Origin: Solimonas terrae
Lineage (GTDB): Bacteria > Pseudomonadota > Gammaproteobacteria > Nevskiales > Nevskiaceae
DNA length: 64,000 nucleotides
Assembly (NCBI RefSeq): GCF_011067135.1
Contig: NZ_JAAMOW010000002.1
Coordinates: 62,001 to 126,000 of the forward strand
Direction of reading: 5' to 3'
In this document: positions 22,944-51,579 of the stretch, one piece after another
Numbering within the stretch: the stretch's first letter is position 1
Layout: every line of letters starts with the position of its first letter
The notes under the pieces: model-generated
Databases searched by the model: none
What the model was told of the DNA's origin: nothing
What the model saw: the letters and a program-made list of their open reading frames with translations, nothing else
Position numbers and translations under genes: made by a program

Positions 22944-22959
22944 TCAACATCGATGTTGA
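22944..22959. promoter_or_regulatory. Perfect TCAACA-N4-TGTTGA operator, acuI / tetR intergenic
   Basis: TCAACATCGATGTTGA, a perfect 16-bp palindrome between the divergent acuI-like and tetR genes. On the minus strand a -35-like TTGATT overlaps its edge, so a bound protein would block acuI. The same motif recurs at 31067 (perfect) and, with mismatches, at 24096, 26206, 40431, 44798, 51475 and 51564. Its position next to a tetR gene suggests autoregulation. Confidence 0.7.
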
Positions 22960-23182
22960 GTCACGGTCCGGAAGTTGTGCGTGAATACATGGAGTTCCGG
23001 GGTTCCGCCGTTGGTGCTTGCGTCCGCAGGCAAGGGCGGGGTCGTGTCGCGTCAGGAGGTCCGGCTTTCCCTGCGCGGGCGGCATGGGCCGTGCAGCCAC
23101 GCAACCCGACATGAACGGCGGATGTCAGTTTCGGGAATATCGGCTAGCATCGCGAAAATTCGTACGCAAGCGGGGGTTGGCA

Positions 23183-23959
23183 TTGAAGAAGAACACTGGC
23201 GGCAGGCCGCGGCGTCGGCGTGATCCCGACGGCACGCGGCTGGCCATACTCGAGGCGGCCGGAACCCTGCTGGCCAAGGACGGCCCGGAAGGCCTCAGTG
23301 TTTCGCAGGTCGCACAGCTGGCCAAGGTCAATCGCGGCACCGCGTACCAGCACTTCCAGACCCGCGAACAGCTGGTCGAGGCGACGACGGTCTGGGTCAG
23401 CGAGCAGTTGTGCCAGTCGGTGTTCGGCAAGACCGCCGCCGGCAAGAATGCGGACGGCAAGCTGACGCCGGAGGAGCAGGCCAAGCTGGCGGACCCGCGC
23501 GGCGGCGTCATCGAGCACATGACGCAGTTCGCGATGGCGAATCCCGAGCTCGGCCGCGCCTGGATGTTCCAGGTGCTGAGTTCGCCGCAACCGGCCAACG
23601 ATCCGTTCTGGAAACTTTATCGGCATCTGTTCGAAGGGTTCGTCCAGACCGACTCGGCGCAACCGGGCATCGATGTCGACGTGCATACCGTGCTGATGAT
23701 CATCGGCACCTTCCTGTGGCCGGTCTGGGCGCGTGCCCATACGCGCACCGCCAAGGAGCGCGAGCAGATGGCGGAGCGCTTCACCAACGAGATCGTGCGC
23801 CTCAGCATGTATGGCACGATGCGGCCGGAGAAGTATCCGGAACTGGCGGCGCGACTGGTCAAGGGCGCGCCGGGCAAGCCGGCCAGGACGGCGGCGAAGA
23901 AGGCGACGAAGAAGGTCGCGAAGAAGCCGGCCGCAAGAAAAGGCCGCGGCGCGAAATAG
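23183..23959 (+). CDS. TetR-family regulator with lysine/alanine-rich tail; candidate master regulator
   Basis: About 258 residues. Start is uncertain: TTG 23183 follows a G-rich stretch, and ATG 23111 is in frame. The N terminus is GGRPRRRRDPDGTRLAILEAAG, followed by a TetR HTH (LSVSQVAQLAKVNRGTAYQHFQTREQLVEA). The ligand-binding domain is helical. The last ~25 residues are a histone-H1-like tail (ARTAAKKATKKVAKKPAARKG), unusual for TetR proteins and possibly adding non-specific DNA affinity. It adjoins the perfect operator at 22944. A terminator follows. Confidence 0.83.
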   Translation: MKKNTGGRPRRRRDPDGTRLAILEAAGTLLAKDGPEGLSVSQVAQLAKVNRGTAYQHFQTREQLVEATTVWVSEQLCQSVFGKTAAGKNADGKLTPEEQAKLADPRGGVIEHMTQFAMANPELGRAWMFQVLSSPQPANDPFWKLYRHLFEGFVQTDSAQPGIDVDVHTVLMIIGTFLWPVWARAHTRTAKEREQMAERFTNEIVRLSMYGTMRPEKYPELAARLVKGAPGKPARTAAKKATKKVAKKPAARKGRGAK

Positions 23960-23982
23960 CCTGCGCCCGGTAGCGGAACACG

Positions 23983-24014
23983 AGCGCCCTGACCCTCGCC
24001 GGCAGGGCGCTTTT
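23983..24014 (+). terminator. Rho-independent terminator after tetR
   Basis: AGCGCCCTG (23983-23991) pairs with CAGGGCGCT (24003-24011), followed by TTTT, 24 bp after the tetR stop. Confidence 0.75.
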
Positions 24015-24095
24015 GCGTGGCGCGGCGCTCCGCAACCCGAAGCGATGTGGCGGTCTTGCCGGCACCGCTCGCCGCTCCTTTTCCTCTATCGCTTT

Positions 24096-24111
24096 TGCAC
24101 ACCGCTGTTGA
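24096..24111. promoter_or_regulatory. Degenerate copy of the TCAACA-N4-TGTTGA motif
   Basis: TGCACA-CCGC-TGTTGA: right half perfect, left half 4 of 6. A further TGAACA half-site abuts it. It lies ~230 bp upstream of the enoyl-CoA hydratase start, in the ~330 bp between the tetR terminator and that gene, where nothing else is recognised. Confidence 0.35.
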
Positions 24112-24342
24112 TGAACAACACGGCGGCGTTCGGCAATTCGTTTAAAGTAAAGGGCGGGCGCGAACGCCCCGGCGCTGCGTCGTCGGCCTGCGCAGGTTCC
24201 GCCGCCGCCGGCTCGCCCCGGATCGCGCGGTGCCGTGGCCTGGAAAGCGCGCTGCAAGCTGCTTCCCGGATGCGATGGCGACACGCCAGCGGCAGCCGAA
24301 GTGCAGCAGTCGATGCCTGAAACGAATGACGAGGAGACCAGA

Positions 24343-25155
24343 ATGAGCGAAGAAGCCCCGCATCTGCTGACCGAGGAAGACGGCGCGATCCTGATCGTGA
24401 CGCTCAATCGTCCCGACAAGCTGAATGCGATCACCGGTTCGATGATGGCGCTGTTCGAAACGGCGTTGCATCACTTCCGCGACACGCCCTCGCTGAAAGT
24501 GATGCTGATCCGCTCGACCGGGCGCTACTTCTGTTCGGGCGCCGACATGCGTGGCCCGGATCAGGGCGGGCCGGCGCGCACCGGCGTGGCGATTCGCGAA
24601 AAGCACAGACGCGGGCTGCACGGCATGCACCGCATCTATGACGAAATGGAGCACATCGAAAAGCCGATCGTCGTTGCGCATCACGCCATGTGCGTCGGTG
24701 GTGGTCTGGAGATGTCGCTGTCCTGCGATTTCCGCCTGGCGGCGAAGAGCGCGGCGTACTCGTTTCCGGAGGGCAAGTTCGGCGTGCTGCCGGCGTCCAA
24801 TGGCGTCAGCCGCCTTGCGCGCATCGTCGGCACGCACTGGACGCGTTACCTGATCATGGCGAACCTGCCGGCCAGTGCCGACAGGGCCTTGATCATGGGC
24901 CTGGTCCACGAGGTATTTCCGGACGAAAGCTTTGCCGACGACGTGATGAAATTCTGCCGGCATCTTGCCGGGCAGAACGGCGAGCAGATGGGCACCGCGA
25001 AGATCGCGATCGAGCTTGCGCACGACGTCGGCCTCGCGCAGGCGCGCCAGGTCGAGCGCATGGCCAACAGCGTGTTGATGCTCAACCCGGACTATCTGGC
25101 CGGCATCGAGCGTTACGTGAAGGGCATCGGCAGCAAGGGCAAGGGCGGCGGCTGA
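24343..25155 (+). CDS. Enoyl-CoA hydratase/isomerase family protein
   Basis: A 270-residue crotonase. NRPDKLNAITGSM near the start, the first oxyanion region YFCSGADMRG, and the second CVGGGLEMSLSCDFRLAA with E in GLEMS, then FPEGKFGVLPASNGVSRL. ATG 24343 follows GAGGAGA; ATG 24313 is also in frame. Likely hydrates or isomerises an enoyl-CoA of the pathway. It converges with cofD (27-bp gap). Confidence 0.88.
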   Translation: MSEEAPHLLTEEDGAILIVTLNRPDKLNAITGSMMALFETALHHFRDTPSLKVMLIRSTGRYFCSGADMRGPDQGGPARTGVAIREKHRRGLHGMHRIYDEMEHIEKPIVVAHHAMCVGGGLEMSLSCDFRLAAKSAAYSFPEGKFGVLPASNGVSRLARIVGTHWTRYLIMANLPASADRALIMGLVHEVFPDESFADDVMKFCRHLAGQNGEQMGTAKIAIELAHDVGLAQARQVERMANSVLMLNPDYLAGIERYVKGIGSKGKGGG

Positions 25156-25182
25156 GTTTTGCGGGCGCCGCGCGGCGCCGGC

Positions 25183-26118
25183 TCAGCGGTGCAGTTTCCC
25201 GATCAGTTCGATGCAGTGGTTCGCCAGCGCGAGCTTTTGCGCCACGGTCTTCATCACGGTCGGCGCCACGGCGAAGCGTGGATTGCCGGCCGCGAGCGCG
25301 GCATCGGCCTCGTCGACGATCACGACATCGACGAAATCCGCGTAGAGATCCGCGATGACACTCGCCTGCGGGTGCACGCCGAGCTCACGCATGATCTTCG
25401 CCGTCGGTCCCTTGATCGCCGCGCCGGCGACGATCGGCGACACCGCGACGACCGGCACCTTGAGCGTGCGCAGTGATTCGCGCAGCTCGGTGATCGCCAG
25501 CATCGGCGCCAGACTCAGATAGGGGTTGGACGGGCAGACGATCACGCCGGCAAGTTCGGGGCTCGCGAGCAGCGCGCGCACCGCAGGCGCCAGCCGCGCT
25601 TTCCCGGCGCCCTCGAAATCGATCGCGCGCAGCGCCGGCTCGCAGCGCAGGCGCACGAAGTAATCCTGGAACGCGAGCGTGCCCTGATCGGTGTGCACGA
25701 TCGTGCGGACCGGTTGATCGCTGATCGGCAACACGCTCGCGGCGACGCCCAGCCGCCGTGCCAGCTCCGCACTCACCGCGCTGAGACTCAGACCTTGCGA
25801 CAGCAACTGGCGGCGCAGCAGGTGCAGCGCGATATCGCGATCCCCGAGCGTGAACCAGCCGTCACCGCCCAGTCGTCGCAGTTCGTCGAGCACGCCGAAG
25901 CTTTCGTCGCCGCGACCCCAGCCCTGCTGTGGATGGACCACGCCGGCCAGCGTGTACAGCACCGTGTCGAGGTCGGGACAGATCGTCAGCCCCAGATGCT
26001 CGAAGTCGTCGCCGACGTTGACGGCGATCAGCAGCGAATCGGGCGGCAGCGCCTGCGCGAGGCCGGCGGCCAATTTGGCGCCGCCGACACCGCCGGACAG
26101 CGCCAGATACCGCTTCAT
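25183..26118 (-). CDS. cofD: 2-phospho-L-lactate transferase CofD (F420 biosynthesis)
   Basis: A protein of about 311 residues. CofD/FbiA transfers the phospholactyl (or related) group from the LPPG-type activated intermediate to FO, giving F420-0. The N terminus MKRYLALSGGVGGAKLAAGLAQ is the CofD nucleotide/substrate loop; NVGDDFEHLGLTICPDLDTVLYTLAG, WFTLGDRD, and VCPSNPYLSLAPML...VVAVSPIVAGAAIKGPTAKI are all family landmarks. ATG 26118 fits the family; ATG 26148 is an alternative with 10 more residues. It stands apart from the other F420 genes but has a near-consensus operator 88 bp upstream. Confidence 0.93.
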   Translation of the reverse strand: MKRYLALSGGVGGAKLAAGLAQALPPDSLLIAVNVGDDFEHLGLTICPDLDTVLYTLAGVVHPQQGWGRGDESFGVLDELRRLGGDGWFTLGDRDIALHLLRRQLLSQGLSLSAVSAELARRLGVAASVLPISDQPVRTIVHTDQGTLAFQDYFVRLRCEPALRAIDFEGAGKARLAPAVRALLASPELAGVIVCPSNPYLSLAPMLAITELRESLRTLKVPVVAVSPIVAGAAIKGPTAKIMRELGVHPQASVIADLYADFVDVVIVDEADAALAAGNPRFAVAPTVMKTVAQKLALANHCIELIGKLHR

Positions 26119-26205
26119 GCCGCCTGCGCTGCCGGCGGCTTCAGCCATGTTCAGGTGCCATTGTTTCGGGTTCCGGTACAAGAAAATCGCAAATGGCGCT
26201 ATCGT

Positions 26206-26221
26206 CCAACAGTGCTGTTCA
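26206..26221. promoter_or_regulatory. Near-consensus TCAACA-N4-TGTTGA operator upstream of cofD
   Basis: CCAACA-GTGC-TGTTCA, 10 of 12 half-site bases matching the perfect copies. It sits between cofD (minus) and the leader ORF/AraC gene (plus), so it could act on both. Confidence 0.55.
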
Positions 26222-26273
26222 AGAATGATGCCGGGCTCGGCGAGGCCGCAGACCGTCAGCGGGAGGAGTCTGA

Positions 26274-26378
26274 ATGACCGCAGTCGAAACTTCCACGCCG
26301 ATCGCCGCGCCGGCGAAATCGGCATCGATCACCGATCGGGCGGCAATGCGCACGTCCCGTGGCGGAGCCGCGGCATGA
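26274..26378 (+). CDS. 34-residue leader ORF translationally coupled to the AraC gene
   Basis: ATG 26274 is preceded by GGGAGGAG with ideal spacing. The frame codes for a 34-residue Ala/Ser/Thr-rich peptide (MTAVETSTPIAAPAKSAS...) and stops at TGA 26376-26378, overlapping the AraC ATG (26375) as ATGA. The AraC start has no good ribosome site of its own, so its translation probably depends on this ORF. No homology is recognised. It could instead be the remnant of a frameshifted N-terminal extension. Confidence 0.5.
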   Translation: MTAVETSTPIAAPAKSASITDRAAMRTSRGGAAA

Positions 26379-27256
26379 ACGCCGAATCGGGCCGGATCAC
26401 GCAGATCGACGCCGATCTGGCGATGCGCGTCGGCCGCGCGCAGCTGGTGCGCAATCGCTGGGAGGCGCCGATCGATCATCGCGGCGCCGCCGATCACCAT
26501 CACCTCGAACTGTCGCTGCTGCCGCGCTCGGGCGAGCCTCAAGGCTGCTTTCCGGATTGCTGGGGGCCGCAACGCTTTGAGCCGATGGGCGAGCTGTTCC
26601 TGCTGCCCGCCGATCAGCTGTTTCATGCCCGCAGCGAATGTCGGCAGCAGGTGTCGGTGATCTGCCGCTTCGATCCGTGCGCGGTCGACGAGTGGTTCGA
26701 AGGCGAGCTGCGCTGGACCGAACGGCGCCTGCGCGGCGGCCTGGACATCACCAGCGAGCGCGTTCGCCGACTGCTGTCCGACATCGCCGACGAGCTGCGC
26801 ACGCCCGGGTTCGCCAGTGCGACGATGGTGGAGTTGCTGGCGGCGCAGGCCGCGATCGAACTGTCGCGGCACCTGATCGGCGTCGAAGCCGGTCGGGTGG
26901 CCGGCGGCCTCGCCGGCTGGCAGCTGCGCCGCATCGAGCAGCGCATTGCCGATGATCCGTCGCCGCCGTCGCTGGCCGAGCTCGCAGAGCTCTGCTGCGT
27001 CTCGTCACGGCATCTGACGCGGGCGTTCCGCGTCAGCCGCGGTTGCTCGATAGGGCATTATCTGGAAACGCATCGCATCGAGCAGTCCAAATGCCTGCTG
27101 GCAGCCGGCCAGAGCGTCAAGGCGGTCGCCTACACGATGGGCTTTACGGCGCCATCCAATTTCGCCGCGGCGTTCCGCCGCGCCAGCGGCGAATCGCCGC
27201 GACAGTATCAGCAGAGAGTGCAGGGCATGCGGCCGGCCTCTGCGCTGTCGCATTGA
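26375..27256 (+). CDS. AraC-family transcriptional regulator
   Basis: A 293-residue regulator. The C-terminal ~100 residues form the double HTH: SLAELAELCCVSSRHLTRAFRVSRGCSIGHYLETHRIEQSKCLLAAGQSVKAVAYTMGFTAPSNFAAAFRRASGESPRQYQQ. The N-terminal part (HHLELSLLPRSGEPQGCF...FLLPADQLFHARSE) looks like a cupin-like effector domain. Its target is unknown; neighbours are cofD and the sulfotransferase unit. Start ATG 26375 overlaps the leader ORF stop. Confidence 0.88.
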   Translation: MNAESGRITQIDADLAMRVGRAQLVRNRWEAPIDHRGAADHHHLELSLLPRSGEPQGCFPDCWGPQRFEPMGELFLLPADQLFHARSECRQQVSVICRFDPCAVDEWFEGELRWTERRLRGGLDITSERVRRLLSDIADELRTPGFASATMVELLAAQAAIELSRHLIGVEAGRVAGGLAGWQLRRIEQRIADDPSPPSLAELAELCCVSSRHLTRAFRVSRGCSIGHYLETHRIEQSKCLLAAGQSVKAVAYTMGFTAPSNFAAAFRRASGESPRQYQQRVQGMRPASALSH

Positions 27257-27271
27257 TGGCCGGACCGCGGC

Positions 27272-27697: not shown

Positions 27698-27704
27698 CTC
27701 CGTT

Positions 27705-28484: not shown

Positions 28485-28504
28485 GTTTCGTCCTCGAAAA
28501 ATTC

Positions 28505-29551: not shown

Positions 29552-29582
29552 GGTGGTCTCCGGGAAGGCGGCTGCAAACGCT

Positions 29583-31066: not shown

Positions 31067-31082
31067 TCAACAACTCTGTTGA
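31067..31082. promoter_or_regulatory. Perfect TCAACA-N4-TGTTGA operator upstream of TonB receptor
   Basis: TCAACAACTCTGTTGA. Its right edge overlaps a -35-like TTGACT (31079-31084), with TAACGT at 31103-31108 as a possible -10. Repression of the receptor by a protein bound here is a direct reading of the geometry. Confidence 0.7.
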
Positions 31083-39176: not shown

Positions 39177-39182
39177 GGTGTT

Positions 39183-40430: not shown

Positions 40431-40446
40431 TGAACAACAGTGTTGA
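40431..40446. promoter_or_regulatory. Near-perfect TCAACA-N4-TGTTGA operator before MaoC-ligase-fbiC-cofE
   Basis: TGAACA-ACAG-TGTTGA, 11 of 12 half-site bases. It is 49 bp upstream of the MaoC start, with a TAATAT that could be a -10 just downstream on the minus strand, so binding would block the promoter. Confidence 0.65.
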
Positions 40447-40452
40447 TACAGG

Positions 40453-41154: not shown

Positions 41155-42130
41155 CGCCGGGTGTCGTGGACGGCTGCGCCGCGAAATATTGCCGCAGCGC
41201 CTGTTTGAACCAGCCGACGAAGAACGCGTTCGCCGCGCGGCTGATCGCGGCCTTCGGCGCGATCACATCGAAGCCGTGGTAGGCGCGCGGGTACAGCTCG
41301 AACGCCACGGGTACGCCCGCAGCCTTGAGCCGCTCGACATAGGCGATCGTTTCGTCGCGGAACGGCTCGAGATCGCCGACGAAGGTGCAGGTCGGTGGCA
41401 GGCCGTGCAGATCGTCGGCGCGCGCCGGTGCCGCGTACGGCGGCACGTCGCCGCCGTGCAGGGCGCCGAGATAGAGCCGCCAGGCCACGTCGTTGGCGGC
41501 CGTGTTCCACACCGGTGCGTCGTTGGCGCGCGCCGACTCGGTGATCGCGCGATCGTCGATCATCGGATAGATCGGCAGCTGGAAGGCGATCTGCACGTCG
41601 CCGCGGTCGCGCGCGTACAGGCTCAGGGCCGCGGTCAGTCCGCCGCCGGCGCTCATGCCGGCCACCGCGATCTGGTCGTCACGAACCCCGAGTTCGGCGG
41701 CATGCGCTTTCAGCCACAGCAGCGCGTCGTGGCAGTCGTGCAATGCCGCCGGATACGGTGCCTCGACGCTGAGCCGGTAGTCGGGCGCGACGATCACGCA
41801 ATCGCCCGCCGCGATCAACTGCCGGTAGGTCGTCACATCCTGCTCCGGCACGCCCATCGCATAACCGCCGCCGTGCAGCCAGAGCACCGCCGGCCGGCCG
41901 GCGCGGGCCTCGCGCGCTCGATAGACGACGAGACGTTGCTCACCACCGTCGCGACGCGGAATCCGGACCTCGGTCGTCCACAGGTCCTTCGGCCTGCGCC
42001 CGGCGAGCAGGCGCTGGTTGAGCCAGTTCAGGCGCCTGAATTTGGCGGGTGTCGGCGCGCCGAGCAGCAGGCCGATGAGGCGCGCCGGCCAGCGCAGTTC
42101 GGGGTCGATCATGTCGGAACGGATATTCAT
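41132..42130 (-). CDS. Alpha/beta hydrolase, HSL (hormone-sensitive lipase) family esterase
   Basis: A 332-residue cytosolic esterase. Oxyanion motif LWLHGGGYAMG, nucleophile GMSAGGG, Asp in CTFVGDLEPFRDE and His in YPRAYHGFDV complete the HSL triad. It sits between fno and cofC and overlaps cofC, so it is certainly co-transcribed with F420 genes. It may open an ester or lactone of the substrate. Confidence 0.88.
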   Translation of the reverse strand: MNIRSDMIDPELRWPARLIGLLLGAPTPAKFRRLNWLNQRLLAGRRPKDLWTTEVRIPRRDGGEQRLVVYRAREARAGRPAVLWLHGGGYAMGVPEQDVTTYRQLIAAGDCVIVAPDYRLSVEAPYPAALHDCHDALLWLKAHAAELGVRDDQIAVAGMSAGGGLTAALSLYARDRGDVQIAFQLPIYPMIDDRAITESARANDAPVWNTAANDVAWRLYLGALHGGDVPPYAAPARADDLHGLPPTCTFVGDLEPFRDETIAYVERLKAAGVPVAFELYPRAYHGFDVIAPKAAISRAANAFFVGWFKQALRQYFAAQPSTTPGDARRAAS

Positions 42131-42153
42131 GGCGTGACGCAGCGTACGTGGTT

Positions 42154-42798
42154 TCAGGCGCCCGTGATGCGGATGCCGACGCTGCGCCCTTTCTGCTGGC
42201 GATTCAGGTGCAACAGCAGCGGCGTCAGCGATTCGATCGCGATCGCATTGCGCAGGGCGCCGACATCGAAGCAGCGCACGCCGAGATCGCGAATCAGCGA
42301 CATGGCCTTTTCGAGGGCCACCTTGTCGTCGGAGCAGGCGAGCACGTCGCAGTCGATCTCGTGCGAGAGATCGCGCAGGTGCACGGCGCTGACGTGATGC
42401 ATGGCGGCGACGACCGGCGTTGCCTCGCCGAGAATGGCTTGCGCCTCCAGCGCCGCGGCCTGCCCGGCAGGCAGGTTCACGGTGCTGATCTTCGGGGGCT
42501 GCAGCGGCACGGTGATGTCGATCAGCACGCGCCCGGCGAGCGCCGGCTGCAGTTCCTGCAGCGTCGCCGCGTGCGCCGCATACGGCACGCTGAGCACGGC
42601 GATTTCGCTGGCCGCGACCGCCCGCTCGTTGCTGCCGCCGCGAATGTCGCGACCGACTGCCTTGCCGAGCTCGGCCGCCGCGGCTTCAGCCTTGGCACTG
42701 TCGCGCGAGCCGACGAAAACCTCGTGGCCGGCGTGCGCCCAGCGCAGCGCCATGCCGCCGCCTTCCTTGCCGGTGCCGCCGATGACTGCAATGCGCAT
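42154..42798 (-). CDS. fno: F420-dependent NADP oxidoreductase (Fno/NpdG)
   Basis: A 214-residue Rossmann protein. [33 protein letters not shown] is the NADP-binding start of Fno/NpdG, with the basic Ser-Arg pair for the 2'-phosphate; [13 protein letters not shown] and DITVPLQPP follow. The enzyme passes hydride between NADPH and F420, recycling F420H2 for reductases. GAGGAG precedes ATG 42798. It is directly downstream of the LLM oxidoreductase, the same pairing as NpdG/NpdI-type systems in actinobacterial picrate degradation. Confidence 0.92.
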
Positions 42799-42902
42799 CA
42801 AGAACTCCTCAATCGAAATACCGGAAACAGGTTCTGCAGGCCGTCATTGCGTTCTCGCGACGACGAACGTGCAGTGCAGGCCGTGCGTCCGCGAACAGCG
42901 GT

Positions 42903-43814
42903 TCAGCCTGGCAGCTTCGCCAGCACGTCGGCTGCGAAGCGCCGTGCGTTGTCGCACCACTCGGCGCGGGTCGCGCCCTTCACGTTGACGGCGCAGCCGC
43001 TGACCCCCATCGCCGCGAACTGGCCGATCTTGTCGATCAGTTCGGCGGGCGACAGCTCGCCGCCGGAGTTGATGCTGGCGAGCTGGATGAGCGGCGTCGT
43101 CGTGCGGCCGATTTTCTCGCAATGCTCGCGCAGATAGGTGAGGCCGCTGGCGAGATCTTCCTCGTCGGCCATCGCCGTGGTGCGCGCGGTGCTCGACAGC
43201 TGCGCCGGCGTGAAGAACGGATTCCAGCCGTCGGCGAGCTCGGCGGCGCGGCGGATCGCGCGTTTCGAATTGCCGCCGACCAGCAACGGCGGGTGCGGCG
43301 TCTGTACCGGGCCGGGTTTGATGCGATTGCCGAGCGCTTCGTAGCCTTCGCCCTTGTGGGTGAATTCCTCGCCGGACAATGCCTTCTTCAGCGCGATCAG
43401 GTAGTCGTCCATGATCTCGTTGCGGCGCTCGAAATCGACGCCGAGCGCCTTGTATTCGCCCTTGAGATAACCGGCACCGAGGCCGAGCGTGACGCGGCCC
43501 TTCGAATACAGGTCCAGCGTCGCCACCATGCGCGCGGTGATGAACGGGTTGCGGTACGGCAGCACGAGGATGCCGGTCTGCAGGCGAAACGTCGTCGTCG
43601 CGGCGGCGACGAACGACAGCATCACGAACGGGTCCTGTGCGTAGTGCCCGCCGCCATCGAGCCAGCGGCCGGTCGGGCAGGGATGGTCGGTGACGTTGCC
43701 ACCGGCAAAGCCGAGCTGCTCGGCGAGCTGAGCGACTTCGACGACGGCCTCCGGCGTCAGGAATTCCTCTGGATGTTCGATGTGGTCGAACGGCAGCGTG
43801 ACATTGATCTTCAT
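42903..43814 (-). CDS. LLM-class F420-dependent oxidoreductase
   Basis: A 303-residue luciferase-like TIM-barrel enzyme. MKINVTLPFDHIEHPEEFLTPEAVVEVAQLAEQLGFAGGNVTDHP, then TGILVLPYRNPFITARMVATLDLYSKGRVTLGLGAGYLKGEY and LLVGGNSKRAIRRAAELADGW match the F420-using branch (Rv2161c-like) rather than FMN luciferases. It would use F420H2 to reduce a substrate double bond, ketone or ring, or oxidise an alcohol. With fno and cofC in the same transcript, it is the most likely F420 consumer here. Confidence 0.9.
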   Translation of the reverse strand: MKINVTLPFDHIEHPEEFLTPEAVVEVAQLAEQLGFAGGNVTDHPCPTGRWLDGGGHYAQDPFVMLSFVAAATTTFRLQTGILVLPYRNPFITARMVATLDLYSKGRVTLGLGAGYLKGEYKALGVDFERRNEIMDDYLIALKKALSGEEFTHKGEGYEALGNRIKPGPVQTPHPPLLVGGNSKRAIRRAAELADGWNPFFTPAQLSSTARTTAMADEEDLASGLTYLREHCEKIGRTTTPLIQLASINSGGELSPAELIDKIGQFAAMGVSGCAVNVKGATRAEWCDNARRFAADVLAKLPG

Positions 43815-43837
43815 CTTGATCTCGTGATCGAAAACTT

Positions 43838-44692
43838 TCAGGACGGGATATCGCCGGTCAGCGTCCACTTGCCGGCGCTGTTGCGCAGCCAGCCGGACGA
43901 GGCCCAGGCGCCGCCGTCGACCGGGATCACGGTGCCGGTGACATAGCTGCTCATCGGCGAGGCGAGAAACACCGCGACATGGCCGCACTCGGTATCGATG
44001 CCCTCGCGGCCCAGCGGCAGGCGGCGTGCGATCGCCGCGCGCTGCGCCGGTGTCGGCTCGATCCATTTCGACGGATCGACCGGTCCGGCGTGATTGCCGC
44101 GAATGCCCGGCGTCGCGGTGATGTCCGGAGCAATCGCATTGACGCGTATGCCGTGATCGGCGAATTCCAGCGCCAGCGTGCGCGTCAGGTTGTTGAGCCC
44201 GGCCTTGCAGGCGGCGTACACGGCGAAGTTCGGCGCCGCGCGGGAAGCCTCGATGCTCGTCACATTGATGATCGTGCCGCCGCGCCCGCCGCGGATCATC
44301 CACGGTACGGCCGCCGAGGTCGCGGCGAGTACGCTGACCAGATTGAGATCGATGTGCCTGCGCCAGGAGCGCTCGGACTGCTCGAGAAACGGCCGGCCGC
44401 TGACACCGCCCGCGTTGTTGACGAGGATATCGATGCGGCCGAACGCCTCGGCCGTGCGCTCGACCAGCGTGCCGATCTGCGTCGTGTCCATGACATCGGT
44501 CGGTACGGCCAGCGCGCGCCGGCCCCGTTCGCGAATGCGGGCGGCAGTTTCCTCGCAGCGTTCGGGAATGATGTCGGCAATCGCGACATCGGCGCCGGCA
44601 TCGGCAAACGCCAGCGCGATCGCCCGGCCGATGCCGCCGCCACCGCCGGTGACGATGGCGACCTGATCGTTCAAGAGCGTATCGGCTTGCAT
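43838..44692 (-). CDS. SDR-family oxidoreductase
   Basis: A 284-residue SDR. TGGGGGIG cofactor motif, Asp after beta-2 (AIADIIPE) suggesting NAD, NNAG and active-site YAACK are intact. ATG 44692 has GGAGAG upstream. It is the first gene of the unit that goes on to LLM, fno, esterase and cofC, so it may act in tandem with the F420-dependent step (for example alcohol/ketone interconversion). Confidence 0.87.
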   Translation of the reverse strand: MQADTLLNDQVAIVTGGGGGIGRAIALAFADAGADVAIADIIPERCEETAARIRERGRRALAVPTDVMDTTQIGTLVERTAEAFGRIDILVNNAGGVSGRPFLEQSERSWRRHIDLNLVSVLAATSAAVPWMIRGGRGGTIINVTSIEASRAAPNFAVYAACKAGLNNLTRTLALEFADHGIRVNAIAPDITATPGIRGNHAGPVDPSKWIEPTPAQRAAIARRLPLGREGIDTECGHVAVFLASPMSSYVTGTVIPVDGGAWASSGWLRNSAGKWTLTGDIPS

Positions 44693-44797: not shown

Positions 44798-44813
44798 TCA
44801 ACAGCACTGTACA
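44798..44813. promoter_or_regulatory. Degenerate TCAACA-N4-TGTTGA operator upstream of SDR-LLM-fno-cofC unit
   Basis: TCAACA-GCAC-TGTACA: left half perfect, right half 4 of 6. It is 106 bp upstream of the SDR start. Confidence 0.45.
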
Positions 44814-44891: not shown

Positions 44892-44926
44892 CCGAGGGAG
44901 CGCCGCATGTTGCGACGCTCCCTCGG
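44892..44926 (-). terminator. Rho-independent terminator after the 44.9-51.1 kb minus operon
   Basis: CCGAGGGAGCG (44892-44902) and CGCTCCCTCGG (44916-44926), followed on the minus strand by TGTTTGTGG. It lies 21 bp beyond the aldehyde dehydrogenase stop. Confidence 0.85.
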
Positions 44927-44946
44927 AAATGGCTGCCGTCCAGGAC

Positions 44947-46413
44947 TCAGGACACGCGCGCGCCGATCGCCTTGATTTCGGTGAATTCCTCGATGCCTTC
45001 GAGGCCCCATTCGCGGCCCATGCCGGACTGCTTGTAGCCGCCGAACGGCAGGTCGCCGGTAATGCTCATGCCGCCGTTGACCGACAGCGCGCCGGCGCGG
45101 ATGCGCTTGCAGACATTCATCGCGCGCTGGTGCGAGCCGAACACCGCGCCGCCGAGGCCGTAGATGCTGTCGTTGGCGATGCGGATCGCGTCCTCGTCGT
45201 CTTCGTACGGAATCACGACCAGCACCGGCCCGAAGATTTCTTCCTGGGCGATGCGCATGTCGTTTCTGACGTCGACGAAGCAGGTCGGCTCGATGAAGAA
45301 GCCGCCGCCCTTGTCGTTGCGGATGTTGCCGCCAGCGAGCAGGCGCGCACCCTCCTTGACGCCGAGATCGACGTAGCCCTTGACGCGCTCGAGCTGACGC
45401 TTGGAGATCAGCGGCCCCATGATGCAGGTCGGCTCGTCGATCTTGCCCCACTTGTCGGCGTAGCCGGCGTAGGCCTTCTCGAGGATCGCGACCGCCATCG
45501 GGTATTTGCTCTTCGGCACCAGCAGGCGCGTCGGATAGGCGCAGCCCTGACCGGCGTGGAACACCACCATCGAGCCGGCGATCACCATCGGGAAGGCCTG
45601 CTCCTGCACATCGTCGAGCACCAGGAACACCGACTTGCCGCCGAGTTCGAGGAACACGCGCTTCAGGGTTTCGGCGCCGTTGGCCATGATCTTCTTGCCG
45701 ACGGCGGTGGAGCCGGTGAACGACACCAGATCGACGCGCGGGTCCTTGGTGAGCATCTCGCCGGCAGTGACGGGGTCGGCGCTGGTGACGACGTTGATGA
45801 CGCCCTTCGGCAGGCCGGCTTCGATCGCCAGTTCGCCGAAGATCGCGCCCATTGCCGGCGTGTCAGGCGCCGGCTTGAGGACGACCGTGCAGCCCGCGAG
45901 CAGCGCGGCGACGACCTTGCCGACGTTGATGTACAGCGGCACGTTCCAGGGCGTGATCGCGGCGACCACGCCGGCCGCTTCGCGCATCACATAACGCTTG
46001 GTGTCGAAGCCCATTTCGTTCTTGACACCGCGATCCTCCTCCCACTTCATGCGCTGGAATTCGGAGATCAGGCCATCGGCGCCGCTCAGCGCGCCATCGA
46101 TCTGCGCACGGTAGGCGGCACCCGGTGCGGCGCCGACTTCGATCTTGGAAATCTCGACGAGACGATCGCGGTTCTTGTAGAGCAGGTCGCGGAAGGTCTT
46201 CATCAGTGCGTAGCGACGGGCGTGGTCGGTGGACCAGTCGGTCGTGTCGAACGCGCGGCGCGCCGCGGCAATGGCGGCGTCGACATCTTCGGCCGAGCCG
46301 TCGGCGGCCTGGCCGATGACCTCGCCGGTCCACGGACCGATGTTGTCGTAGGTCTTGCCGCCCTTGGCCGGGCGCAGCTCGCCGTCGATGAAGAGCAGGG
46401 TGTCGAGTGCCAT
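44947..46413 (-). CDS. Aldehyde dehydrogenase family protein
   Basis: A 488-residue ALDH. ITPWNVPLYINVGKV, FTGSTAVGKK, catalytic Glu in LELGGKSVF and Cys in HAGQGCAYPTR are in place; the QGC context is shared with a group of ALDHs found in hydrophobic-compound degradation clusters. It is the last gene of the minus operon that starts with the SDR at 51088, and the terminator follows. Aldehyde substrate not known. Confidence 0.9.
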   Translation of the reverse strand: MALDTLLFIDGELRPAKGGKTYDNIGPWTGEVIGQAADGSAEDVDAAIAAARRAFDTTDWSTDHARRYALMKTFRDLLYKNRDRLVEISKIEVGAAPGAAYRAQIDGALSGADGLISEFQRMKWEEDRGVKNEMGFDTKRYVMREAAGVVAAITPWNVPLYINVGKVVAALLAGCTVVLKPAPDTPAMGAIFGELAIEAGLPKGVINVVTSADPVTAGEMLTKDPRVDLVSFTGSTAVGKKIMANGAETLKRVFLELGGKSVFLVLDDVQEQAFPMVIAGSMVVFHAGQGCAYPTRLLVPKSKYPMAVAILEKAYAGYADKWGKIDEPTCIMGPLISKRQLERVKGYVDLGVKEGARLLAGGNIRNDKGGGFFIEPTCFVDVRNDMRIAQEEIFGPVLVVIPYEDDEDAIRIANDSIYGLGGAVFGSHQRAMNVCKRIRAGALSVNGGMSITGDLPFGGYKQSGMGREWGLEGIEEFTEIKAIGARVS

Positions 46414-46469
46414 GTTCAGTCCTCTTGGATGTTGCGATTCTTCAGGGGTTCGTTACGGGTGCTGCGTGT

Positions 46470-48107
46470 TCAGTTCGTGCCCTGCAGCGCGTGCTGCGCC
46501 GCGAGCCAGGCCCAGGTCATCGTCGGGCCGATGCTGCCGCCCGGTCCGCCTTCGACCGGACCCATCACGGATGCGGTCGACGTGCCGGTCGCGTACAGGC
46601 CCTCGATCACCGAGCCGTCGTCGCGCAGCACCCGGGCGTGGACGTCGCAGACCAGTCCGCCGAAGGTGCTGACGTCGCCGGGATACATCTGCATCGCGTA
46701 GAACGGGCCTTGTTCGATGGTGCCGAGCGTGCGCGTGTCCGCTTTCAGCGGGTCGCCCGACCATTCGTCGAAGGCGTGTGCGCCGCGCCGGAAATCTTCA
46801 TCGGTACCGCGACGGACTTGCTCGTTGTAGCGTTCGACGGTCGCGCGCAGTGCGTCGGCCGGCAGGCCGCAATCCGTGGCGAGGGCCTCGATCGTCTCGG
46901 CCTTGTGCAGGATCTTGCTGTCGAACCAGGCCTGCGGCTTCTTCGGTCCCGGCATCGAGCCGGCCAGCATGTAGGTGTTGATGTACTGGCTGTCGACGAT
47001 CATGAAGCTCGGCACGGCCGGCGCGGTCTTGTGGCGATCGAGCATCTTGCGGCAGATGTCGGTCGGCGCGCCGCTCTCGCGCATGTAGCGCACGCCGCTG
47101 CCATCGACGACGATGCAATGCGGCTTCGATGTGTCGAGATTCGGTTTCACGGTCTTGTCGCCCGGCGGCAACGTGATCTGCATGCCGATGCGCTGGTCCA
47201 TCTGTGCGACGGCGGCGCCGATGCGCAGGCCGGCTTCGATCATCTCGCCCTTGTCCTCGGCGATCACGCTCGTCCATTCCGACTTCACGCCGGGCTGGTA
47301 CTGGTCGAGCATGCGCTGGTTGCGCGCGAAGCCGCCGGCGTTGAGCAGCACGCCGAGCGTGGCCGTGACGCGTTGTCCGTTGGCGATCACGCCGACGACA
47401 CGATCGTGTTCGACGATCAGCTCGCTGACCGGCGACTGCAGGCGAATCTCGACGCCGGCCTTCAGCGCGGCGTGCAGCATCTGCCCCTGCAGGGCTTGAC
47501 CGGCCGTGGCGCGATGCTTGCCGGTCAGCTTGTCCTTGAGCGCGCGACCGAGGATGCGCAGCAGCACCTTCTTGGCGGCCTTGTCGCGCTTCATCAGCGG
47601 CAGCTGCATGGCCTCGTCGAGGTTCGCCGGCAGCGGCAGGAAGCCGGGCCGCAGTCGCGCCTTCCATTCGCCGAGCTGCTTGATGTCGAACAGTTCGGAC
47701 ACCACGGTGCGGCCGGGCTCCGACGCGCCGGCGACGCTGTAGTGATCCGGGTAATGCGGTATTCGGCGCAGCTTGATGCCTTGCGCGACGAGAAAGTCGA
47801 TCATCTGCGGCGCGGCGTCGACGAAGGCCGCGCGCCGTTCGCGGCTCGCGCCCGGCATGGCGGCGTGATCGCCGACGGCTGCGTCGAGATACGCGATCGC
47901 CTGCTCGCGGCTGTCCGGTACGCCCGCTTCCTTCATGTAGCGGTTGTTCGGAATCCACATCACGCCGCCGGAGGTCGCCGTCGTGCCGCCGACCAGATCG
48001 GCCTTTTCGACGATCAGCACGCGCTTGCCGGCGGCGCGCAGCACCAGCGCCGCGCAAAACGAACCGGCACCGCTGCCGACGATGATGAAGTCGTGGTTCT
48101 CGCTCAT
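46470..48107 (-). CDS. FAD-dependent dehydrogenase, 3-ketosteroid-delta1-dehydrogenase-like (FAD_binding_2)
   Basis: A 545-residue flavoprotein. The N-terminal GSGAGSFCAALVLRAAG dinucleotide-binding motif, GGTTATSGGVMWIPNN, and the C-terminal YATGTSTASVMGP...GGPGGSIGPTMTWAWLAAQHA match KstD/FAD_binding_2 proteins. Such enzymes introduce ring double bonds next to a ketone in steroids. Whether the substrate is a steroid is inference; related proteins act on other alicyclic ketones. It shares the operon with an ALDH and SDRs. Confidence 0.85.
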   Translation of the reverse strand: MSENHDFIIVGSGAGSFCAALVLRAAGKRVLIVEKADLVGGTTATSGGVMWIPNNRYMKEAGVPDSREQAIAYLDAAVGDHAAMPGASRERRAAFVDAAPQMIDFLVAQGIKLRRIPHYPDHYSVAGASEPGRTVVSELFDIKQLGEWKARLRPGFLPLPANLDEAMQLPLMKRDKAAKKVLLRILGRALKDKLTGKHRATAGQALQGQMLHAALKAGVEIRLQSPVSELIVEHDRVVGVIANGQRVTATLGVLLNAGGFARNQRMLDQYQPGVKSEWTSVIAEDKGEMIEAGLRIGAAVAQMDQRIGMQITLPPGDKTVKPNLDTSKPHCIVVDGSGVRYMRESGAPTDICRKMLDRHKTAPAVPSFMIVDSQYINTYMLAGSMPGPKKPQAWFDSKILHKAETIEALATDCGLPADALRATVERYNEQVRRGTDEDFRRGAHAFDEWSGDPLKADTRTLGTIEQGPFYAMQMYPGDVSTFGGLVCDVHARVLRDDGSVIEGLYATGTSTASVMGPVEGGPGGSIGPTMTWAWLAAQHALQGTN

Positions 48108-48134
48108 TGCTGTTTCCCTTGATCTGCATCACGA

Positions 48135-48240
48135 CCGTTCGTCCCGAGTGTTTCGGCGCCAGCCGAAATGTATCGAGGGACCTTTGCGCCAGGCCCCTCG
48201 ATACACCGCACGCGATGCGTGCGGCACTCGGGGCGAACGG
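48135..48240. repeat. Perfect cloverleaf (three hairpins closed by an outer stem), REP-like element
   Basis: Outer arms CCGTTCGTCCCGAGTG (48135-48150) and CACTCGGGGCGAACGG (48225-48240) pair at 15 of 16 positions, the other being G-U capable. Inside lie three abutting hairpins: TTTCGGC/GCCGAAA (48151-48168), TGTATCGAGGG/CCCTCGATACA (48169-48205) and CCGCACGC/GCGTGCGG (48206-48224). No base is left unpaired at the junctions. It sits between the FAD-dehydrogenase start and the SDR stop. Confidence 0.85.
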
Positions 48241-48270
48241 GCCGTCGGGAGTTCATCGACGACGGCCGTC

Positions 48271-49008
48271 TCATGCAGCCTTGCTCGCGTGCAGATGGAC
48301 ATTCGCCATGTGCAGGTCGGGTGGCATGTCGAGGATGGCGTGGAACGCCGCGGTTACCGAGTTGACCTGCGACAGCGGCTGCTCGCGCAGATTGCGGCCG
48401 ATCGCGGCGTTGGCCTGCGCAAAGCGCATCGCCACCTGCGGGTCCCAGTTCGGTGGTATCGGCTCGTCGATCATCATGCCGCAGCGCACGTTGGTGACGC
48501 GGATGCCGGCCGGCTTGAGCTCGTGGTACAGGCCTTCGGAGAAACGGTCGAGTCCGGCCTTGCTGGTCTGATAGGCGACCAGATACGGAAACAGCATGCC
48601 GGCCGATTCGGAGCTGACGTTGATGATGTGGCCGCCGGCCGACATCAGCGGAATCGCCGAACGCGCGCACAGCATCGGTCCGGCGAGGTTGGTCGTGATG
48701 ATGCTCATGATCTGCGCGTCGCTGGCTTCGGCGATCAGGAACGGCTCGTAGACCGCGGCGTTGTTGATCAGCACGTCGATCTTCGGATGCGCGGCGGCGA
48801 TTTCGGCGAAGGCCTTCTTCACCGACGCCGGCGATGCGACGTCGCATTCGACGGCCATCGCCGGCGCGCCGAGTTCATCCGCGACGGCCTTGACCTTGGA
48901 CAGTGTGCGGCCGAGCAGTACCAGCGTCTCGCCCTGCTTCGCGAAACGACGCGCGAGCGCGCGGCCCAGACCGATGCCGGCACCGGTGATGACGATGACC
49001 CTCGACAT
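48271..49008 (-). CDS. SDR-family oxidoreductase
   Basis: A 245-residue SDR with TGAGIGLG cofactor motif, Arg-rich beta-2 end (LLGRTLSK, favouring NADP), NNAAVYE and active-site YQTSK. It lies 28 bp after the EthD-like gene's stop and before the FAD-dehydrogenase gene, separated from the latter by the cloverleaf element. Alcohol/ketone substrate unknown. Confidence 0.86.
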   Translation of the reverse strand: MSRVIVITGAGIGLGRALARRFAKQGETLVLLGRTLSKVKAVADELGAPAMAVECDVASPASVKKAFAEIAAAHPKIDVLINNAAVYEPFLIAEASDAQIMSIITTNLAGPMLCARSAIPLMSAGGHIINVSSESAGMLFPYLVAYQTSKAGLDRFSEGLYHELKPAGIRVTNVRCGMMIDEPIPPNWDPQVAMRFAQANAAIGRNLREQPLSQVNSVTAAFHAILDMPPDLHMANVHLHASKAA

Positions 49009-49036
49009 GCCGCGTTCTCCTCGATTCGTTGTGGGC

Positions 49037-49825
49037 TTACTTGTTCTGCGCAGCGGCGGCCTGCGCCGCCTTGTACGGTGCGAAATCGCCGGCGTAGGCG
49101 ACGCCGCCCTTCCAGAAGCGATCGCCGCTGATCTTGTTGAAATAGTGCACGGTGCGCGCGGTCGAGCCGGACGACGAGCGCGGCTGCATGGCGATGCCGC
49201 TCGGGCTGCGGCCGCCGGCGCGCGCCGAAAAATCGCGGATCGTGAACAGCAGGTCGTCGGTCTGCTGGGCGCACAGCACCAGCTGGTCGCCCGGACAGTA
49301 ACGGCGCGGCTCGATCTGCAGCTCGGACAGCTGGCCGCGCTTCATGCCGACATGGCCGGGTACATTGATGACTTCGCCGCTGTGCACGTTGTCGTACCAG
49401 TCCTGATACTCGGCGTAGCGGCCGATCGTGTAGTTGGCGAGGATGATGCTGATGCCGGACAGCGGTTCGTCGCGCTGCCAGTTCGGGCTGATCTTCCAGT
49501 CCGAATACATGCGATAGCTGTACAGGCGCTCGCTTTCGTCCTCGTCCGCGATCAGGCCGGCGTCGCGGGCTTCGGCAATCAGCGGCCCCAGCGCCGGCAG
49601 ATCGATCGCCGGATTCGGCAGATCGAAATCGTAGAGGCTCACGTAGCGCCAGGGCTGCGGAATGTCCGCCATGATCTGAATCGGCGACACCTCGAAACGC
49701 TCGGCGCCGCCGAAGCCGCGCAGGGCCGCCAGCGCCTTGCGGTGCGGGCCGTCGAACCACGCGGCATATTCGGCCTCGCGGCCGGTCGGGACGTTGTGCA
49801 GATGGATCGTGCAGTAGTGAGACAT
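49037..49825 (-). CDS. Duplicated dimeric alpha/beta-barrel (EthD-like) protein
   Basis: A 262-residue protein made of two related halves: MSHYCTIHLHNVPTGREAEYAAWFDGPHRKALAALRGFGGAERFEVSP and the later IILANYTIGRYAEYQDWYDNVHSGEVINVPGHVGMKRGQL. Each half has the WF/WY...H pattern of EthD-type dimeric alpha/beta barrels, small auxiliary or monooxygenase-like proteins in degradation operons. Function unknown. Confidence 0.7.
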   Translation of the reverse strand: MSHYCTIHLHNVPTGREAEYAAWFDGPHRKALAALRGFGGAERFEVSPIQIMADIPQPWRYVSLYDFDLPNPAIDLPALGPLIAEARDAGLIADEDESERLYSYRMYSDWKISPNWQRDEPLSGISIILANYTIGRYAEYQDWYDNVHSGEVINVPGHVGMKRGQLSELQIEPRRYCPGDQLVLCAQQTDDLLFTIRDFSARAGGRSPSGIAMQPRSSSGSTARTVHYFNKISGDRFWKGGVAYAGDFAPYKAAQAAAAQNK

Positions 49826-49844
49826 GTCGTTTCCCGTTCTCGAA

Positions 49845-50303
49845 TCAGGGTTTTGCCGCGACCGGCTGCAGGTCGAGGTGCAGGCGCGTCAGGCGCGACG
49901 CCGCCAGTTTCCATACGCCGTTCTGCCGGACATAGCGCTCGTGATAGTGGCCGTAGCCGGTCAAGCCGGCCAGGCCGACGCGCGCGGCGTGTTCGGCGCC
50001 GAACAGCACGCGATCCTGCATCGCCCAGATCACGCGCGCCTCGTTGTCGCCGACGAATTCGATTTCCGGCGTATGCACCTGATGCGCGGTGCGCGCGTCG
50101 CCGATCGAAGCTCGGATCTGCGTCAGCGCGGCGTCGCGACCGCGGATCACCGGCAGCGACGAGCCTTCGCTGACGTCGAGTTCGAAGTCGTCGGTGAACA
50201 GCGCCGCGTATTCGGTCCAGTTCTTGGTGTCGAGGAAGCGGCAGTAGCGCGCCTTGACCTGCATGATGGCGAGCTGCGTGGCGATGCGGTCGGTTTCGGT
50301 CAT
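49845..50303 (-). CDS. SnoaL/NTF2-like protein
   Basis: A 152-residue cone-fold protein: IMQVKARYCRFLDTKNWTEYAALFTDDFELDVSEG, then HQVHTPEIEF and GHYHERYVRQNGVWKLAASRLTRL are the SnoaL_4/NTF2 pattern. Homologues include ketosteroid isomerase-like, scytalone-dehydratase-like and hydroxylating-dioxygenase small-subunit-like proteins. It could isomerise or dehydrate a ring intermediate. Encoded 14 bp after the SDR at 50318-51088. Confidence 0.82.
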   Translation of the reverse strand: MTETDRIATQLAIMQVKARYCRFLDTKNWTEYAALFTDDFELDVSEGSSLPVIRGRDAALTQIRASIGDARTAHQVHTPEIEFVGDNEARVIWAMQDRVLFGAEHAARVGLAGLTGYGHYHERYVRQNGVWKLAASRLTRLHLDLQPVAAKP

Positions 50304-50317
50304 GGGGCGATCCGGAT

Positions 50318-51088
50318 TCAGGTCAGCGACGCGCCGGCGTCGACGGTGATCATCTGATTGGTGACATAGCGCGCCGCCGGTGCCGCGAAGAACAGCACGG
50401 CGGCGCCGATGTCCTGCGGCTCGCACATGCCCAGCGGGGGCTTGCGGCGCGCCGGGCCCGCAGTTGCCGGACCGCGCGCGGCGATCGCGCCCGGCGTCGT
50501 CACGCCGCCGGGCAGCACGGTGTTGACGGTGATGCCGTGTTCGACGAGTTCGAATGCGCTGGTCAGGCTCAGCGACAGCAGCGCGCCCTTCGACGAGGCG
50601 TACGACGCCAGGCCGTTGACCGCCGCCGTGCGCGCGCTGTTCGAGGCAATGTTGACGATGCGGCCGCCGTTGCCGGCGGCGACCATCGCGCGACCGATCT
50701 CGCGAATCATCAGCAGCGGCCCGCGCGCATTGACCGCCATCATGCGGTCCCATTCGGCGCTCGTCGTTTCAAGCAGCAGCTCGCGATCCTGAAGGCCGGC
50801 GTTGTTGACCAGCAGCCATGGTGTGCCATGCCCGGCGATGGCTTCGGCGCAGGCCCGCACGATCGAGGCTTCGTCGGCGAGATCGACGACGAGGGCGTGG
50901 GCGCTGCCGCCGCGCTGCACGAGCGCAGTGACGGTGCGGTCGGCAGCCGCAGCATCGCGGTCGGCGATCAGCAGGGTCGCGCCGGCGTCCGCGAGCACGC
51001 CGGCGATGCCGGCGCCGATGCCGCTGCCGGCTCCGGTCACCAGCGCCAGCCTGCCCCGCAGATCGAAACCGGTCGATGCGCCGCTCAT
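50318..51088 (-). CDS. SDR-family oxidoreductase, first gene of the minus operon
   Basis: A 256-residue SDR: VTGAGSGIGAGIAG cofactor motif, Asp at the end of beta-2 (IADRDAAAA, NAD), NNAG and active-site YASSK. ATG 51088 has AGGAG upstream. It heads the unit SDR-SnoaL-EthD-SDR-FAD dehydrogenase-ALDH and is divergent from the plus operon starting at 51717. Confidence 0.87.
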   Translation of the reverse strand: MSGASTGFDLRGRLALVTGAGSGIGAGIAGVLADAGATLLIADRDAAAADRTVTALVQRGGSAHALVVDLADEASIVRACAEAIAGHGTPWLLVNNAGLQDRELLLETTSAEWDRMMAVNARGPLLMIREIGRAMVAAGNGGRIVNIASNSARTAAVNGLASYASSKGALLSLSLTSAFELVEHGITVNTVLPGGVTTPGAIAARGPATAGPARRKPPLGMCEPQDIGAAVLFFAAPAARYVTNQMITVDAGASLT

Positions 51089-51474
51089 GCCTGATGTTCT
51101 CCTCGTCTCGTGGTCGGCAGCGGTGTCCGCTCTGGCAATCCGCGGGGCGCCTGCTGCCGTTGCTGCGTTTGCGTCAGGCGAGGATTTCCCCGCCGATCAG
51201 GAACCTGCGATGCATCATGCGTCCGCTTCGCGGCGCACGCGGCGCACGCGGCGTGACGCAGGCATGACAGCCTGGAGCACGCCGAGCACGCGCCTGCGGG
51301 AGATCGCGGCGCCGCGCCGTTCGAGGGGCCGGCGGATCGTGCTGCCGACAGCGGGCCTCGGGACGATGGTCTGCAAGCTCATGCTACGGTCTCGGTGCTG
51401 CTCGCGGCTGAACGTGCCTGTCCGTCATCCGCGGGGCTATATTAGGCGCCGACCTGCTGCCGGTGCGATCATAA

Positions 51475-51490
51475 TCAACAGAGTCGATTA
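51475..51490. promoter_or_regulatory. Degenerate TCAACA-N4-TGTTGA copy
   Basis: TCAACA-GAGT-CGATTA: left half perfect, right half 3 of 6. It is enclosed by the repeat ATAATC (51471-51476) and GATTAT (51486-51491). Confidence 0.35.
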
Positions 51491-51563
51491 TGACAGTCCA
51501 GCGACCTCGTTCCGCAAGGCAAAACAGCTTGCCTTCAGGTGCAATTCGTCTGCCGGTGGCTGG

Positions 51564-51579
51564 TCGACACTGTTGTTGG
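51564..51579. promoter_or_regulatory. Near-consensus TCAACA-N4-TGTTGA operator upstream of the 51.7 kb operon
   Basis: TCGACA-CTGT-TGTTGG: 10 of 12 half-site bases match. It is 138 bp upstream of the ferredoxin start. Confidence 0.45.

Follow-up and report, generated by a model that had tools for sequence, protein, structure and literature searches.

In Solimonas terrae, a gammaproteobacterium, a stretch of 64 000 nucleotides (hereafter the window; C13:62001–126000 of a genome of 4.42 Mb) carries genes for making and using the cofactor F420 among catabolic genes, and copies of the palindrome TCAACA-N4-TGTTGA lie in front of many of them. A first-pass annotation had described eight such copies as a shared operator, and that observation is confirmed: all eight are where it had placed them, with the same numbers of mismatches (Table 1), and all lie outside called genes, scoring 16.3–30.4 bits with a refined matrix. 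Its estimate that about 0.004 exact copies should occur by chance at even base composition was recomputed as 0.0038 (0.0005 at the real composition, 66% GC), and its judgement that two perfect copies are unlikely to be accidental was borne out: where the window has 2, 1 and 4 copies with 0, 1 and 2 mismatches, 150 dinucleotide shuffles averaged 0.00, 0.02 and 0.75, and none of them came up to the real numbers. With up to three mismatches the excess was weak (17 sites vs. 9.5 expected, a number reached by 3 of 100 shuffles), so it is from conservation (see below), rather than from the window itself, that the site at 51475 can be claimed.

The F420 genes of the window form three operons, every one of which has a site (26206, 40431 and 44798). 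CofC, CofD, CofE, FbiC/CofGH and the F420 reductase all score above curated cut-offs (NF006687, TIGR03552, TIGR01819 and TIGR01916 for the biosynthetic proteins), as does the luciferase-like monooxygenase (LLM) protein with a model of an F420 subfamily. The perfect site at 22944 precedes the gene of a TetR-family regulator, here called TetR25.

Table 1. Genes and operator sites of the window, in order of position. Genes were called by our own script, trained on the window, and the main assignments were confirmed with Pfam or NCBIfam. SDR, short-chain dehydrogenase/reductase; ALDH, aldehyde dehydrogenase; CoA, coenzyme A.
Feature	Position	Strand	Remarks
acuI, acrylyl-CoA reductase	21886..22869	-	Predicted target; NF051456 above cut-off
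Operator, perfect	22944..22959	none	Between acuI (-) and TetR25 gene (+); 30.4 bits
TetR-family regulator TetR25	23183..23959	+	TetR_N domain
Operator, 2 mismatches	24096..24111	none	Between TetR25 gene and enoyl-CoA hydratase; 20.6 bits
Enoyl-CoA hydratase	24343..25155	+	Predicted target; PF00378
cofD, 2-phospho-L-lactate transferase (F420)	25183..26148	-	Predicted target; TIGR01819 above cut-off
Operator, 2 mismatches	26206..26221	none	Between cofD (-) and araC (+); 18.4 bits
AraC-family regulator	26225..27256	+	Predicted target or neighbour; PF12833
Operator, perfect	31067..31082	none	146 bp before TonB receptor; 28.8 bits
TonB-dependent receptor	31229..33892	+	Predicted target; PF00593, PF07715
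cofE, F420-0:glutamate ligase	34066..34857	-	Predicted target; TIGR01916 above cut-off
fbiC, bifunctional FO synthase CofGH	34854..37337	-	Predicted target; NF006687 above cut-off
Acyl-CoA ligase and MaoC/FAS1-type dehydratase	37452..40382	-	Head of fbiC-cofE operon; PF00501, PF13452
Operator, 1 mismatch	40431..40446	none	49 bp before MaoC-ligase-fbiC-cofE operon; 28.5 bits
cofC, 2-phospho-L-lactate guanylyltransferase	40453..41154	-	Predicted target; TIGR03552 above cut-off
Esterase, fno (NADPH-dependent F420 reductase), LLM F420 oxidoreductase, SDR	41132..44692	-	Upstream part of cofC operon; TIGR01915, TIGR03619 above cut-off; Pfam
Operator, 2 mismatches	44798..44813	none	106 bp before SDR-LLM-fno-esterase-cofC operon; 21.1 bits
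ALDH, KstD-like flavoprotein, SDRs, SnoaL	44947..51088	-	Divergent catabolic genes, one operon by adjacency; Pfam
Operator, 3 mismatches	51475..51490	none	Distal of pair, SDR48 operon (-) / ferredoxin-SDR-P450 operon (+); 16.3 bits
Operator, 2 mismatches	51564..51579	none	Proximal of pair, before ferredoxin-SDR-P450 operon; 17.4 bits
Ferredoxin, SDR, P450, thiolase, amidohydrolase	51717..59204	+	Divergent catabolic genes, one operon by adjacency; Pfam for five genes; gene order

How is the motif distributed over the rest of the genome? A pattern search of the whole genome (the source of all genome-wide counts, matrix scans covering 383 kb, or more exactly 382.8 kb) found six perfect copies, all of them intergenic, eight with one mismatch, and 96 places with up to two mismatches vs. 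36 for a reversed control pattern; the slightly degenerate TSAACA-N4-TGTTSA had 12 matches, and its control none. Within the 382.8 kb, the true motif has nine intergenic sites with at most one mismatch, and each of 59 palindromes made by permuting its letters has at most one. The first-pass annotation had also considered that the motif might be equally common in unrelated coding DNA; in the same 382.8 kb it is not. Coding DNA there holds four one-mismatch and seven two-mismatch sites, and 3 of the 59 control palindromes (one with 24 sites) equal or exceed the latter number. Three one-mismatch matches of the genome lie in called coding DNA (C11:33715, C14:380341 and C15:341355) and one at a gene edge (C11:272111): the first two are probably chance matches (scores 9.9 and 9.4) and were rejected as operators, and the other two score high (30.0 and 26.6). 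A matrix trained on 56 sites from relatives only, and used with a threshold of 16 bits, found 26 intergenic and four coding sites in the 383 kb, and 200 column-permuted matrices gave means of 0.17 and 0.07, with maxima of four and two. Most sites fall in a catabolic island of some 180 kb (C13:84.9–260.9 kb); C4 has a further pair, and C11 and C15 have one site each. The 160 kb past the window end contain 18 (16 intergenic), and 60 kb of C13 outside the island (2–62 kb) contain none.

Among exact intergenic palindromes with six-base arms, TCAACA with a spacing of four is joint commonest in this genome (six copies) and the commonest in relatives (17). The common element of the sites is a 24-bp palindrome with a variable centre, whose consensus from 78 sites (own and relatives) is TAA-TCAACA-RYRY-TGTTGA-TTA, with ACA and TGT nearly invariant. 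CAACA-N-TGTTG, considered as a second motif family, was mostly the same motif, the variable centre forming an inner palindrome.

The sites are also found in relatives, where 60 of the 66 sites in 37 stretches were intergenic (53 of 59 without G021, a genome of 54–57% GC on which the gene caller fails, only 22–43% of its loci being called coding, so that ‘intergenic’ is unreliable there). After five duplicate loci had been dropped, sites were seen to be kept at the orthologous promoters of a CoA-transferase III gene (seven of eight genomes), a KstD-like flavoprotein gene (six of seven genomes; 6 of 11 copies), an SDR gene (six of eight), an ALDH gene (five of eight), ferredoxin (four of four) and acuI (three of four), although these fractions are biased upward because most of the loci had been selected for having a site or TetR25. 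Seventeen loci of TetR25-positive genomes picked without regard to sites (chosen for fbiC, for a regulator gene or to fill gaps; L174, fetched for a known site, was excluded) had 18 intergenic and no coding matches in 309 kb, or 16 and none if G021 is left out (the 16 include one site of L172 counted in two registers). No match was seen in the 96 kb of five F420 loci from genomes without TetR25 (G015 twice, G026, G055 and G043). In the relative G029, the acuI orthologue has a 16-mer identical to the 22944 site 76 bp upstream, the hydratase orthologue is preceded by a site (L105:12927, 15.6 bits) similar to that at 24096, which lies 231 bp from the hydratase start, and the TonB receptor orthologue has a site of 21.5 bits (L151:2815). 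Paired sites 69–71 bp apart precede the orthologous ferredoxin/P450 operon in G006, G017, G036 and G040; the spacing of the window pair (51475 and 51564) is 89 bp.

Might the sites nevertheless be chance occurrences, or some other repeated intergenic element (a mobile or structural repeat), and not operators at all? The single sites at 26206 and 51475 are weak on their own, and genomes without TetR25 also have 0–2 matches each (of two in G033, the one examined was in coding DNA); but such an explanation is contradicted by the shuffles, the permuted matrices and the empty control loci, and by the fact that what the sites share, a 24-bp palindrome whose centre varies, is retained in different genera at orthologous promoters; we consider it extremely improbable. 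The genome-wide list, the intergenic location, the conserved orthologous promoters of other genera and the empty control loci together support the view, already taken in the first-pass annotation, that the sites are one operator serving one regulon. One factor would then read it at about 25 promoter regions (at the 16-bit threshold, in the stretches examined), mostly in the island of about 180 kb.

Which protein might this factor be? The best candidate, to which we would give a probability of roughly 0.58, is TetR25. Its N-terminal helix-turn-helix matches PF00440 with 42.7 bits (cut-off 24), its AlphaFold model has an all-helical TetR fold (mean pLDDT 74.8, pTM 0.66), and the best 50 Foldseek matches are of TetR type as far as their titles tell (TM-score to target 0.45–0.69), the likeness being to TetR proteins generally (FadR, KstR and KstR2 included), with no close match and no hint of a ligand. 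The 6-4-6 geometry of the operator is compatible with a TetR dimer on a palindrome. TetR25 is present in 12 of 58 genomes of the family, and 8 of these 12 have at least three sites, compared with none of the other 46 (Fisher test, 2.6e-7, not corrected for relatedness). No further genome among 369 sampled from the class appeared among the matches listed at E ≤ 1e-40, and outside the family (59 genomes) only G069 had a close copy. Of 21 aligned copies, 20 have VNRGTAYQHF in the recognition region. In S. terrae a perfect site precedes the TetR25 gene, and upstream sites of 13 bits or more were seen for 7 of 18 copies (Mann–Whitney p = 0.011), vs. none of eight copies of IclR-A, another regulator of the island (in this comparison copies that agreed fully in their last 60 residues were counted once, and the TetR25 copy of G001, missed by the gene caller, was excluded). 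In the 20-kb loci of G003 and G001, the best-scoring site is just upstream of TetR25, albeit weak (12.4 and 9.2); neither IclR-A nor a further regulator, IclR-B, was found in these two genomes.

Several facts count against this assignment. For 11 of the 18 TetR25 copies no upstream site reaches 13 bits, and in G001 and G003 the recognition region is the same, yet neither a TSAACA match nor a 16-bit site was found in the DNA searched. Hexamers resembling -10 sequences showed no clear spacing from the sites (the best offset accounted for 10 of 150 site–gene pairs). Moreover, the candidate regulators are all encoded within one island; their co-occurrence with the sites may reflect only the pathway, and distribution alone cannot decide between them. 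In this respect IclR-B (C13:224547–225356, about 98 kb past the window end) does slightly better than TetR25: it is present in 11 of 13 genomes with at least two TSAACA sites (the exceptions being G025 and G033) and in none of nine with fewer, G001 and G003 among them, whereas the corresponding values for TetR25 are 11 of 13 and two of nine (n = 22 genomes).

The same operator and regulon might therefore be read by IclR-B, upstream of which there is a site in 7 of 11 genomes (at least 22 bits in G006, G017, G021, G036, G040 and G051; 14.8 in G057). These sites may, however, serve a divergent SDR operon, and there is none upstream of IclR-B in S. terrae itself, G010, G029 or G069. Instead, in S. 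terrae and G029 the IclR-B promoter has a palindrome of another kind, AGAAT-N3-ATTCT, whose arms are rich in A/T (core AGAATAATATTCT; L023 ~19410–19440, near C13 225.4 kb), to which sequence in the promoters of G057, G010 and G069 is related by eye; this is perhaps the operator of IclR-B itself. We consider it unlikely that IclR-B is the reader of TCAACA-N4-TGTTGA, although the question of identity lies mainly between it and TetR25.

It also seems doubtful that the operator is read by some other protein, such as IclR-A (C13:256241–256984), a LysR protein, another of the TetR or AraC proteins of the island, or a further regulator. The island does contain more tetR, iclR and araC genes; IclR-A occurs in nine of the 58 family genomes, seven of them with at least three sites; and a lysR gene beside an ALDH gene has a site of 22.9 bits upstream (a single copy, shared with the divergent ALDH gene). 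Against these points, IclR-A was not found in G051, a genome rich in the motif, and none of its nine matched loci (seven distinct) has a 14-bit site within 1.5 kb of it. Of 11 TetR25-positive genomes with at least two sites, eight yielded no TetR_L020 and four had no close match to TetR_L019; distribution thus lowers the standing of IclR-A, TetR_L019 and TetR_L020 alike.

Three further observations concern TetR25 and its surroundings. A TetR protein 47% identical to it is encoded near the F420 cluster of G026 (L156:16545–17183), where no such operator of at least 12 bits was seen in 20 kb. About 20 bases (TTTTGCACACCGCYGTTGATGA) 3' of TetR25 are common to the window (24090–24120) and Solimonas soli (L091:10955–10985), the surrounding DNA having diverged. 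A sequence titled Verrucomicrobia bacterium (L092; CAJCJI010000412.1) has acuI and TetR25 with operators, and the same look as contig 412 of G057, a genome assigned to the gammaproteobacterial family studied here; its title may be wrong.

If TetR25 is the regulator, it would act as a repressor in the promoter regions of the operons with sites, its own gene being among those controlled. The median distance from site to start codon (102 bp over 150 site–gene pairs) fits repression at the promoter. By analogy with KstR and FadR, an intermediate of the pathway, perhaps a CoA thioester, would bind TetR25 and release it from the DNA, whereupon uptake, oxidation, steps resembling beta-oxidation, and the synthesis and reduction of F420 for LLM-type oxidoreductases would be switched on together. 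The ligand, the direction of control and the promoter positions in this scheme follow TetR-family practice. As for the substrate, the KstD-like, P450, Rieske, CoA-transferase, acyl-CoA dehydrogenase and LLM genes of the island suggest that it may be a polycyclic, steroid- or terpenoid-like compound; the two KstD-like flavoproteins score below the equivalog cut-offs for KstD (3-ketosteroid dehydrogenase).

The link between operator and F420 is supported as real in S. terrae and as partly conserved in relatives. In G029, the fbiC-cofE promoter (L151:11157, 20.9 bits) and the LLM-fno-cofC promoter (L151:15620, 17.8 bits) have sites at the same places with changed letters, at a locus outside the training set, and in MAG44 (L093) an LLM-SDR operon has a site of 28.9 bits, scored with a matrix from whose training it was absent. 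On the other side, no site was found at the G029 cofD promoter (a 17.2-bit match lies inside the cofD coding region instead), at the separate fbiC gene of MAG44, or in the F420 cluster of G057, despite the presence of TetR25 there; such gaps count against the scheme proposed above. fbiC, whole or in part, is found in 8 of the 58 family genomes (G000, which is the S. terrae genome itself, G015, G026, G029, G043, G044, G055 and G057) and was not found in the motif-bearing G006, G010, G017 and G021, which indicates that the catabolic regulon is independent of F420. From this, F420 appears to have been added to the regulon in part of the lineage.

The operator before the F420 gene sets suggests that the cofactor is made on demand for the breakdown pathway. 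In its full form, the proposal would be that F420 is inducible here, and not a housekeeping cofactor: one catabolic repressor would switch cofC, cofD, cofE, fbiC, fno and the gene of the LLM enzyme, in three operons, with the uptake and degradation of one class of substrate, F420 having been recruited into a regulon that exists without it in sister genera. We put this forward tentatively, at slightly less than even chances, an estimate lowered by the lack of a site at MAG44's separate fbiC gene. A concrete operator, a list of targets and two candidate proteins make the control of F420 biosynthesis testable, in a gammaproteobacterial family in which F420 is patchy; they also provide a regulon map for a large uncharacterized catabolic island (P450, Rieske, LLM and CoA enzymes) and a route to its inducer.

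There are resemblances to known systems. The KstR and KstR2 regulons of actinobacteria, for cholesterol catabolism, likewise have a TetR-type reader (here a candidate) and a single palindrome that recurs in many promoters across an extensive catabolic island, CoA-ester, P450 and KstD-like genes being present in both cases. They differ in phylum and in that F420 genes are included here; TetR25, moreover, does not have the KstR model NF033703 among the 12 families that it matched at E ≤ 0.001. The KstR operator is TNNAACNNGTTNNA, with a spacing of two between AAC and GTT, a pattern not seen here, where the consensus spacing is six. In the npd genes for picrate degradation in Rhodococcus, an F420 reductase and F420-dependent hydride transferases are co-regulated with a degradation pathway; F420 biosynthesis genes are not known to be part of that regulon, whereas here cofC, cofD, cofE and fbiC stand behind the operator.

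Steroid-type degradation in Proteobacteria also has a known repressor in EdcR of Caenibius tardaugens, which is estrogen-dependent and, in the opening of the abstract (PMC8700777), is described for one cluster, with no mention of F420. The proteobacterial F420 biosynthetic set, an fbiC fusion with cofC, cofD and cofE, is that of a review (PMC8498797) in whose main text the terms ‘transcriptional regulat’, ‘regulon’ and ‘repressor’ do not occur. In the open-access literature searched, which leaves subscription journals mostly outside, none of the titles and abstract openings listed concerned transcriptional control of bacterial F420 biosynthesis; nor did the open-access literature yield anything joining F420 biosynthesis to TetR, operator and regulon, or Solimonas to F420. 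Matches listed for the motif letters were mostly primer tables.

Finally, we draw attention to some features of neighbouring genes. The called start of the AraC-family gene is 3 bp past the end of the 26206 site, so this start may be misplaced. Two proteins of the window (49037–49825, 262 aa, and 28505–29551, 348 aa) had no Pfam match at E ≤ 0.001 and have close homologues in relatives. The island encodes three more luciferase-like (LLM) proteins (L022:10790–11914, L019:12824–13819 and L025:11077–12090), which are possible users of F420.

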